Part shown: positions 15,336 through 28,550 of the stretch, piece after piece
How the letters are laid out: each line of letters begins with the position of its first letter
Position numbering within the stretch: the first letter of the stretch is position 1
Assembly: GCA_949398305.1 (NCBI GenBank)
Contig: CASLVD010000004.1
Location: 1 to 62,303 of the forward strand
From: an uncultured Candidatus Melainabacteria bacterium
GTDB lineage: Bacteria > Cyanobacteriota > Vampirovibrionia > Gastranaerophilales > Gastranaerophilaceae
DNA length: 62,303 nucleotides
Direction of reading: 5' to 3'
Position numbers and translations under genes: made by a program
Notes under the pieces: model-generated
The model's input: only the letters and a program-made list of their open reading frames with translations
What the model was told of the DNA's origin: nothing
The model's database searches: none

Positions 15336-15620
15336 TTATTCTTCTGTTAATCTAAATCCTTCCGGTAATCTGGTATTTACTTCATCGATAAATTCCGGAA
15401 ATGTCATCCCTAAAGCATTAACAAGCTTCCATAATGTAGAGATTTGAACATCTCTTTTCCCTTTTTCAAGCTGTGCTATTGAACTGCTTGGAATATCATA
15501 TTCATAACTCAATAATAATATTCCTTTATTCAAAGCTTTTCTTTTTTCTTTTACAATTTGCCCGATAACATCAAGCAATAATGCTTTATCTTCCTGAACT
15601 TTTTTATCGTATTTTTTCAT
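15336..15620 (-). CDS. XRE-family transcriptional regulator, cassette 1
   Basis: This is a 94-residue helix-turn-helix protein. The HTH spans about residues 20-75, with DIPSSSIAQLEKGKRDVQIS as the recognition part, followed by LWKLVNALG. The start at 15620 (MKKYDKKVQED) is chosen because the longer reading would run into the divergent promoter and operator. It has no clear ribosome binding site. It faces the pilin-like gene at 15689 across a 36-bp dyad, so it most likely controls that gene and itself. No sensor domain is attached, so the signal is unknown. Confidence 0.85.
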   Translation of the reverse strand: MKKYDKKVQEDKALLLDVIGQIVKEKRKALNKGILLLSYEYDIPSSSIAQLEKGKRDVQISTLWKLVNALGMTFPEFIDEVNTRLPEGFRLTEE

Positions 15621-15630
15621 ATAGACAATT

Positions 15631-15666
15631 CTAATAAGATATGATAATATGGTCATGTCTTATTAG
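15631..15666. promoter_or_regulatory. Operator-like dyad between regulator and pilin gene, cassette 1
   Basis: CTAATAAGATATGA (15631-15644) and TCATGTCTTATTAG (15653-15666) match as inverted arms at 13 of 14 positions with an 8-base centre. A promoter for the pilin gene (TAGACA 15622-15627, 17 bases, TAATAT 15645-15650) lies within and beside it. Repressor binding here would therefore block transcription. It sits in the divergent region of an XRE regulator, where self-operators are usual. Confidence 0.6.
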
Positions 15667-22177: not shown

Positions 22178-22399
22178 TTAACTTAACTCTTTTAAAAACT
22201 CATCGATACTTAATCCAAGTACTGACGCTATTTTTATGAAATTATACAAAGATAAAGACATTTCCCCGCGTTCAACAAAACCTATGTAAGAAAGACTGCA
22301 ATCAGCCATTTCTGCCAGTTTCTCCTGCGAAATTTTCTTACGCATTCTTTCAACTTTTATTTTAAAGCCGATTTCTTTTTTAAATGTTTCTTTATCCAT
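22178..22399 (-). CDS. XRE-family transcriptional regulator, cassette 2
   Basis: This 73-residue single-domain helix-turn-helix protein is of the short Cro/CI-like kind. The HTH includes KISQEKLAEMADCSLSYIGF and VERGEMSLSLYNFIKIASVL. It faces the pilin-like gene at 22499 across about 100 bases carrying repeated CTAT...ATAG dyads, which are probable binding sites. The start lacks a ribosome binding site and has TATAAT-like sequence close by, so the mRNA may be very short-leadered. There is no effector domain. Confidence 0.85.
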   Translation of the reverse strand: MDKETFKKEIGFKIKVERMRKKISQEKLAEMADCSLSYIGFVERGEMSLSLYNFIKIASVLGLSIDEFLKELS

Positions 22400-23231: not shown

Positions 23232-23549
23232 CTAAAATTCATTTACGATATTATATATAAGTTTTAACTTAGATTCATCTAATACTTCAAGCCTACTATT
23301 GATTTTTTTAATTAATTCATCTTTTGAAACAAGAAGTTTAAAATTAAAAATTTCTTCATAAGAAACATCTAAACTATCCAAAATCTTTTCAAGTGTTTCT
23401 AAGGATGGGTAATTTCTGCCGTTTTCAATACGACTAAGATGTTTTGGATCAATACCTACCATCTCGGCAAGCTTATCTTGTGTAAGTTTTCTATTTTCGC
23501 GATACTCTTTTAGCCTTAAACCTAAAAGTTCCTTTTTATTTTTTTTCAT
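23232..23549 (-). CDS. XRE-family transcriptional regulator, cassette 3
   Basis: This is a 105-residue protein. An N-terminal HTH (about 8-65) contains KLTQDKLAEMVGIDPKHLSR and IENGRNYPSLETLEKILDSL. A short C-terminal helical tail (about 70-105) could be a dimerisation or protein-contact part. Start 23549 (MKKNKKELL) has a GGTGAAA site. The upstream in-frame start is rejected. It is divergent from the pilin-like gene at 23689, whose promoter carries two 13-base direct repeats. Confidence 0.85.
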   Translation of the reverse strand: MKKNKKELLGLRLKEYRENRKLTQDKLAEMVGIDPKHLSRIENGRNYPSLETLEKILDSLDVSYEEIFNFKLLVSKDELIKKINSRLEVLDESKLKLIYNIVNEF

Positions 23550-23617
23550 AACTTTCACCAATATAAATATACTAACCAAGCGACCAGCTATATATAACTA
23601 CATACATATAGAATATA

Positions 23618-27357: not shown

Positions 27358-27573
27358 CTACGACTTTTCCATCAACAAATAATCCAGAGTTTTACCATAA
27401 AAAGATGCAAATGTATATGCATTCGTTAATGAAATTTTATGCTTCCCGCTTTCAACATTAGAAATATATACAGAACTAAAATCCAGTTTTTCTGCGACTT
27501 CTTCCTGAGTAAGCCCTAGTCGAATTCTTTCAAGCTTTATATTTAACCCGAATGTCTTTAATAATTTATCCAT
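27358..27573 (-). CDS. XRE-family transcriptional regulator, cassette 4
   Basis: This 71-residue single-domain HTH protein has RLGLTQEEVAEKLDFSSVYI and SNVESGKHKISLTNAYTFAS. It matches the cassette 2 regulator in size and layout. It faces the pilin-like gene at 27660. TAGTTTAA occurs both at its start (27573-27580) and before the pilin gene (27637-27644), flanking the promoters. There is no clear ribosome binding site. Confidence 0.85.
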   Translation of the reverse strand: MDKLLKTFGLNIKLERIRLGLTQEEVAEKLDFSSVYISNVESGKHKISLTNAYTFASFYGKTLDYLLMEKS

Positions 27574-27590
27574 AGTTTAATTTTATAATC

Positions 27591-27619
27591 TTGACTTTAA
27601 ATTTCCTATAATCTATAAT
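27591..27619 (+). promoter_or_regulatory. Consensus promoter of pilin-like gene, cassette 4
   Basis: TTGACT (27591-27596), a 17-base spacer, then TATAAT (27614-27619), followed by GAGGAGA and the ATG at 27660. Confidence 0.65.
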
Positions 27620-27659: not shown

Positions 27660-28550
27660 ATGATAAAAAATATTACTTTATCAGGTGCTGAGCACGTAGT
27701 TAAATTAACTAATGAGCACTGCAGGTCGTGCACAGATGTAATAAGTGCTAAAATATGTAGCATATTGCCCACTCCGGCCGAGGATGGTTTTACTTTAGCA
27801 GAGGTCCTCGCCGGACGGGGTAATATGCTACCAGTATTTTCTAAAGCTGGTTTTACTTTAGCAGAGGTTCTTATAACATTAGGCATAATAGGTGTTGTCG
27901 CAGCAATGACAATTCCGACATTAATTTCAAAAATTCAGAAGCAACAAATAGAAGCTCAATTAAAAGAAAATTATTCGGTCATCGCGCAAGCTATGAAATT
28001 ATCCGAAGAAGAAGGAGCGATTTCTCCACAATTGGTAGTAAATCAGCAAAAAGTTCAAGCCTGGTTTGAAGAATTTATGTCCAAAAGCCTAAAAACAGAA
28101 GTTGTTTGTTATCATAAACCCGGATGCTGGCATAAAAGCGGAGTCGTAAAAACCTTAAATAATACAACCCCGAATTACGAAACAAATGTAGGAAACGGAG
28201 AATCTGTTATCGGAGCAATTTCCGTTACTTTTAGAACAGCAAAAGGTGCATATTTTGATTTAGACATAAGCGGAAGCGCAGCTTCGCAAGGATTATTTGG
28301 TATTGACACAAGCCAGAACACGTTACAATTTTATGTTGATGTAAACGGTGATAGAAAGCCAAATATCATTGGGAAAGATATATTCATTATGGTTTATGAA
28401 TATGATAAAGGCCTCGTTCCGGCCGGAAATGACAGAACACCTAATGAAATCAAACAAAATTGTGAGCAGGGTAACGGCTATTGGTGTATGAAATATATAA
28501 AAGACAACGGCTGGGTAATTCCGGATTCTGTTTGGAAACGTAAAATATAA
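27660..28550 (+). CDS. Pilin-like protein with duplicated prepilin signal, cassette 4
   Basis: The 296-residue reading frame starts at 27660 after a strong GAGGAGA site. It carries GFTLAEVL twice, at residues 43-50 and 64-71. Only the second copy continues into the hydrophobic helix ITLGIIGVVAAMT. The extra 21 codons are a 63-base in-frame unit lying in an inverted repeat. A second plausible start is the ATG at 27826, preceded by GGACGGGG, which would give the normal short leader MLPVFSKAG. The globular part has the family motif DVNGDRKPNIIGKDIF. From the first start, the residues ahead of the functional signal would be unusually long. Confidence 0.8.
   Translation: MIKNITLSGAEHVVKLTNEHCRSCTDVISAKICSILPTPAEDGFTLAEVLAGRGNMLPVFSKAGFTLAEVLITLGIIGVVAAMTIPTLISKIQKQQIEAQLKENYSVIAQAMKLSEEEGAISPQLVVNQQKVQAWFEEFMSKSLKTEVVCYHKPGCWHKSGVVKTLNNTTPNYETNVGNGESVIGAISVTFRTAKGAYFDLDISGSAASQGLFGIDTSQNTLQFYVDVNGDRKPNIIGKDIFIMVYEYDKGLVPAGNDRTPNEIKQNCEQGNGYWCMKYIKDNGWVIPDSVWKRKI
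27757..27831. repeat. Inverted repeat inside the pilin-like gene
   Basis: The arms at 27757-27784 and 27805-27831 match at about 24 of 27 positions with one bulge. Both carry TCCGG and CGAGGA blocks and end in GTAGCATATT or its complement. The 20-base loop lies within the first copy of GGTTTTACTTTAGCAGAGGT (27786-27805), which recurs at 27849-27868. The right arm is related to the repeat at 62129-62303. Confidence 0.75.

Follow-up and report, generated by a model that had tools for sequence, protein, structure and literature searches.

In-frame accretion of REP-like palindromic units as the probable source of a duplicated cleavage signal in a type IV pilin-like gene of Gastranaerophilales

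The window considered here, a stretch of 62,303 nucleotides from an uncultured Candidatus Melainabacteria bacterium of the order Gastranaerophilales, contains a type IV pilin-like gene with two copies of a prepilin cleavage signal, raising the questions of how the duplication arose and which copy is used. The 20-mer GGTTTTACTTTAGCAGAGGT occurs in two exact copies (27786-27805 and 27849-27868) lying 63 nt apart in the same frame, as a sequence-only reading of this locus had reported; the chance expectation for such a repeat, obtained from shuffles, is 0. The pair can be extended to 24 nt at 96% identity, and a search for a third copy with up to three mismatches retrieved none. The 296-aa product reads ...EDG43-FTLAEVL-AGRGNMLPVFSKA-G64-FTLAEVLITLGIIG..., and the earlier reading was also correct in that the 13-residue linker after the first GFTLAEVL is no membrane helix, the hydrophobic stretch being found only behind the second copy. 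The gene and its immediate surroundings are organized as follows:

27358..27573, minus strand: divergent XRE/Cro-type HTH gene (an ORF in alignment A1, where 39 of 57 such ORFs match HTH_3)
27591..27619, plus strand: promoter-like site TTGACT-17-TATAAT (a consensus match only, at 11 of 12 positions)
27660..28550, plus strand: 296-codon gene for a type IV pilin-like protein, the mature part of which would start at F65 (27852) (ORF, PF07963 and TIGR02532 above cut-off, modelled long N-terminal helix)
27660..27851, plus strand: 64-codon leader, ending at the predicted cleavage G64^F65 (last FTLAE before the hydrophobic stretch)
27786..27805, plus strand: first 20-mer (GFTLAEV), with no hydrophobic helix after it
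27849..27868, plus strand: second 20-mer, the predicted working prepilin cleavage motif G^FTLAEV (repeat search and Pfam match)

The sole Pfam domain of the protein, N_methyl, aligns on residues 62-84, that is, on the second copy, with a PF07963 score of 30.4 bits (cut-off, 21.2); the NCBIfam model TIGR02532 scores 28.9 (cut-off, 16.3). The protein has the class III signal motif G/A^FTLxE with a hydrophobic helix behind it, and the sequence-profile matches are mostly to pilin N termini. The structural model of the mature protein (pLDDT 87.9) begins with a 51-residue helix (residues 3-53) followed by strands and is pilin-like. Foldseek searches of the PDB recovered no solved head fold at an E value of 0.001 or less, the FimA pilin 3sok being a weak match (E value of 0.37, probability of 0.38), and we accordingly dropped the assignment of a PDB fold. 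Since the first FTLAEV has no hydrophobic stretch behind it, cutting there is not expected. Like known class III signal peptides (PMC4471445), the protein combines a hydrophilic leader, a (G/A)^FTLAE motif, and a hydrophobic helix, and the same genome encodes a candidate prepilin peptidase (L361, 1132-2232; A24_N_bact, 1.2e-35) with a GEGD motif and a catalytic domain scoring under the Pfam cut-off (19 versus 26.5 bits). It differs from them in that the earlier motif copy is apparently unused, in the frequency of Ala at position -1 of the cleavage site in this family, and in leader length: known type IV pilin leaders have 6 to 26 residues (PMC4471445), and the 64-residue leader lies outside this range, so that the predicted cutting at G64^F65 needs experimental proof. 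The ATG at 27660 is a strong start, preceded by a GAGGAG ribosome site; it had been overlooked in the sequence-only reading, as had the 22-nt inverted repeat and the decayed unit described below. A short palindrome, AAACTGTAGTTTA, lies between the promoter match and this ATG, and the divergent XRE-type gene is likely to encode the regulator of the pilin.

Dissection of the leader revealed that the sequence around the first 20-mer consists of recognizable repeat-derived units:

27672..27699, plus strand: decayed oldest unit, with ITLS for FTLAE and then GGTGCTGAGCACGTAG for the core GGTGCTACGCACGTAG (alignment with the leaders of pilins C6, C90, and C19)
27684..27785, plus strand: leader unit C, running from GAEHVVKLTNEHCRSCTDVISAKICSILPTPAEDG to the first 20-mer and closed by a REP-like copy in reverse orientation (alignment; DNA matches of 77-86% in the leaders of other pilins)
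27757..27784, minus strand: REP-like repeat in reverse orientation, one hairpin arm (inverted repeat I1, fold)
27804..27848, plus strand: leader unit A, a forward REP-like repeat plus VFSKA, holding ATG 27825-27827 (matches in pilins C84, C21, C74, and C38 and in non-pilin places)

The decayed unit encodes the peptide ITLSGAEHV. The 22-nt inverted repeat (arms 27757-27778 and 27810-27831) carries the first copy of the 20-mer in its loop and folds into a hairpin of -48.5 kcal/mol (z = -6.1); each arm is a copy of a dispersed REP-like repeat, GTCCTCGCCGGACGGGGTAATATGCTACCA, the two lying in opposite orientation. This repeat also occurs in about 20 non-pilin places in the same genome; copies outside pilins are mostly intergenic, several directly behind a TAG stop. 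Across loci of several genomes we collected 29 distinct copies that are not preceded by LAE codons. The sequence GTAGCATA is found on one strand, the palindrome not lying directly behind it, and nine of the 29 copies have a TAG near the other end. One copy is read in frame within a UvrD-like helicase ORF (L034, ~1500). In the congener G007 (L089, L103, L108, L111, and L266) the repeat is read in another frame, as GPRRTGYSATN...SAG^FTLAEV, so that its 3' end (CTCCGCGGGG) provides the SAG ahead of the cleavage site.

These features recall the Rickettsia palindromic elements (RPE) and the GTAG/CGTC-tagged REPs, which occur within ORFs in frame, often adjoin or supply TAG stops, can lie near protein N termini, and form opposed pairs (PMC3733652, PMC10969869). 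Like them, the repeats described here are short, dispersed, mostly intergenic, palindromic, in frame, and opposed, with one copy in the helicase ORF. They differ in recurring at a single codon within one gene family, in the prepilin leader, where they are flanked by duplicated FTLAE, and in that we could link no transposase to them; we assign the repeat to neither the GTAG nor the CGTC family. A stop interrupts the sole Y1_Tnp of the genome, around which we saw no copies of the repeat. We therefore rejected RAYT-driven spread in this genome and did not file the repeat as a RAYT-type REP.

The arrangement is far from unique to this gene. In the 1.92-Mb genome (99% complete), a strict pattern for pilin 5' ends retrieved 99 matches, and the reversed control retrieved 0, which points to about 99 type IV pilin-like genes; congeners G006, G007, and G008 have 82, 81, and 37, and most others have 11 or fewer. 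Among the 87 of these 99 that we examined, taken from stretches around pilin genes, the arrangement FTLAE-insert-FTLAE is present in 12 and a poly-G tract in 20; in 49 others with an assignable start, most leaders have 4 to 14 residues. Of the order's 192 genomes, 28, spread over 7 of 45 genera, contain the pattern FTLAE-N40-70-FTLAEVLITLG (reversed-pattern control, 0), which was also found in 81 GTDB genome stretches, a good number of them carrying the labels Gastranaerophilales or Melainabacteria. None of the 114 distinct inserts breaks the frame or contains a stop. Insert tails are 77% identical within a genome versus 46% between genomes, and the 16-nt core is about 90% or more conserved per position across genera, third codon positions included, unlike the FTLAE codons, which vary freely. 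Homogenized tails and a constant core would fit copying among the paralogs of each genome together with constraint on the core. In the genome under study the core has seven copies, all in pilin leaders. In G125 it has 79 copies (up to one mismatch), some outside pilin frames; the two of these that were checked (L312 and L323) start a different dispersed repeat.

Insert-free relatives bear on the direction of change. An ortholog in the congener G212, 64% identical, has a matching divergent XRE promoter and the plain leader MKRG^FTLAEVLITLG, which argues that the 64-residue leader is derived; a second ortholog, in G006 (69% identical), also has a short leader, and of two paralogs in the same genome whose mature proteins share 92% identity (L194 and L210), only one carries an insert. 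From these short-leader orthologs and this pair, the insert is most simply read as the derived state. The comparison covered congeners and paralogs, with one consensus genome per species, and congeners differ; the sequence is accordingly not the single, fixed, ancient one that would have spoken against the sequence-only reading.

On the basis of these observations we consider it probable (roughly 0.72) that the leader has grown by stepwise in-frame addition of REP-derived units, with the last FTLAE being the working site; the cleavage signal would be duplicated because small palindromic repeats were added in frame to the leader. Each unit would follow an FTLAE and bring at its own end a fresh (A/G)-FTLAE, placed directly against the VLITLGIIG helix, itself left unchanged; of all FTLAE copies, the newest and furthest downstream would become the prepilin-peptidase site as older ones drift. 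Three such generations may be recognized in the window, namely, the decayed ITLS (27672), FTLAEV (27786), and FTLAEV (27849); this order is suggested by the oldest copy being decayed and the newest repeat being identical at 20 of 20 positions, and a tandem double leader unit in L243 agrees with it. Translation from ATG 27660 would yield one preprotein with a 64-residue leader, which would be lost when the prepilin peptidase cuts before F65. As everything before the last (G/A)^F would be removed by this enzyme, added in-frame residues should be tolerated, and in-frame insertions could be near-neutral and spread among pilin genes by recombination between similar 5' ends. The prepilin leader is thus best read as a tolerant landing zone for leader units. 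Several observations count against accretion besides the unusual leader length and the failure to find a transposase linked to the repeat: a purely neutral leader does not explain the conservation of the core at synonymous sites, the model does not account for the FTLAE on both sides of every insert, and a true target-site duplication is only weakly supported. Identical flanking FTLAE codons within genomes were seen 7 times versus 3.35 expected (p = 0.012), the corresponding test on mean identity giving p = 0.12. As a general origin we rejected recent target-site duplication, since the synonymous codons of two FTLAE copies resemble each other hardly more within one gene than across genes. A minority of pairs, that of the window among them, may have been duplicated recently.

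The conserved core is also the starting point for a more active mechanism, in which the palindromic core would be a recombination or transposition site at which a dedicated enzyme copies units into pilins. Its constancy at third codon positions next to freely varying FTLAE codons, the homogenized tails, the double unit of L243, and the abundant copies in G125, some outside pilin frames, would all suit such a system. Nevertheless, we regard it as unlikely, as no candidate enzyme was found, the core in the genome under study is restricted to pilin leaders, with seven copies, the signal of target-site duplication is weak, and ordinary gene conversion between pilin paralogs could give the same result. 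The sequence-only reading had ventured a related idea, a cassette that shuffles pilin N termini, which survives in part: like inserts do sit at the same codon in many pilins, both in this genome and across seven or more genera, their tails are homogenized within genomes, and insert-free orthologs or paralogs exist. It falls short in what is varied, the variable part being the leader due for removal; with the variation confined to this part, the mature pilin is not shuffled.

An explanation at the level of the mRNA, whereby structure formed early in the coding region by the core and hairpins would set pilin translation or mRNA stability, appears improbable. The strength of the hairpin and a conservation of core nucleotides beyond the needs of the protein are in its favor, yet the stem pairs, although 86-93% paired, show almost no compensatory changes among 57 distinct sequences, no Rfam family matched, and the structure is missing from many pilins. 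We discarded an assignment as an RNA element on the same grounds of Rfam matches and compensatory change. Least probable of the three is the use of alternative starts, by which an ATG preceded by GGACGGGG (27825-27827, residue 56, in frame and one nucleotide before the position 27826 given in the sequence-only reading) would yield, besides the long preprotein, one with the leader MLPVFSKAG and an identical mature pilin: this leader has a normal length of nine residues and the ATG is kept in most copies of units A and B in this genome, but both the ATG and GGACGGGG belong to a dispersed repeat also found outside pilins, the ATG lies within the stem of the strong hairpin, just 17 of the 82 inserts in the 45-nt class have Met at this position, C38 of the same genome has CTG, and no plus-strand promoter-like site lies between 27660 and 27825.

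Returning to the pilin family in which accretion is proposed, we found two arrangements that may relate to its control. A run of 9-12 G is present in the leader of the 20 poly-G genes mentioned above, and in 17 of these a recognizable ATG with a ribosome site stands a short way ahead of the run. Where the run has 9 G, this ATG is not in the pilin frame; in both 10-G genes it is. From tract to cleavage site the pilin frame has no stop in 804 codons, the other two frames having 94 in 803 and 60 in 784. In other species, poly-G of 8 or more precedes 32 of 150 pilins, 28 of these inside an open frame, and poly-C precedes 12 more. Tracts of 9-12 G or C after an ATG are seen, for instance, in L173, L182, L144, L153, L167, L171, and L217 of the genome under study, among others, and in L227, L234, L256, and L290 of other species; in tract-bearing pilins the frame stays open through long repeat-filled leaders. 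The tract-bearing paralogs combine an early tract of at least nine G or C with an open downstream frame, and the window gene itself has no homopolymer tract. These patterns suggest that the tracts probably switch pilin genes on and off by phase variation, which, the assemblies being consensus sequences, is a prediction.

The second arrangement is a divergent HTH_3 regulator, found beside at least 39 of 67 pilins without poly-G and beside none of the 17 poly-G pilins with upstream sequence (Fisher p = 4.5e-6). Such private XRE/Cro-type genes occur in the window at 15336-15656, 22178-22399, 23232-23579, and 27358-27573 (minus strand) and at 35 or more other loci; they are divergent to most pilins lacking poly-G, some pairs having a palindrome in between. 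Among known systems, Neisseria combines poly-G phase variation of pilC with recombination between pilE and pilS (PMC5953494). The likeness lies in a homopolymer tract of at least nine in a pilus gene (pilC) and in recombination among repeated pilin loci; here, in contrast, many of the pilin genes themselves have a tract in the leader, and the leader rather than the mature pilin is homogenized. One could go further and conceive of a leader-cassette system of Gastranaerophilales, in which a putative enzyme copies units at the 16-nt core into dozens of pilins and, through this copying combined with the poly-G/C tracts and a separate XRE regulator for every pilin, each cell expresses a different subset of up to about 100 genes; we hold this extended scheme to be doubtful.

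Searches of the literature on Gastranaerophilales pilins, type IV pili, and phase variation found little, one paper mentioning only a pilA gene, and we found no description of repeat-filled pilin leaders or of two such control schemes in the literature searched. If the accretion reading holds, it suggests a simple rule for the in-frame entry of selfish palindromic repeats into protein genes, namely, that a leader destined for removal admits them. The poly-G/C tracts may be a weightier discovery than the duplicated leader signal. Some non-photosynthetic relatives of cyanobacteria living in the gut have tens to about 100 pilin-like genes, for which there are two control schemes, one based on homopolymer tracts and the other on a private XRE regulator. 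Should tract length differ within populations, a large set of phase-variable pilin genes would be present in these uncultured bacteria.
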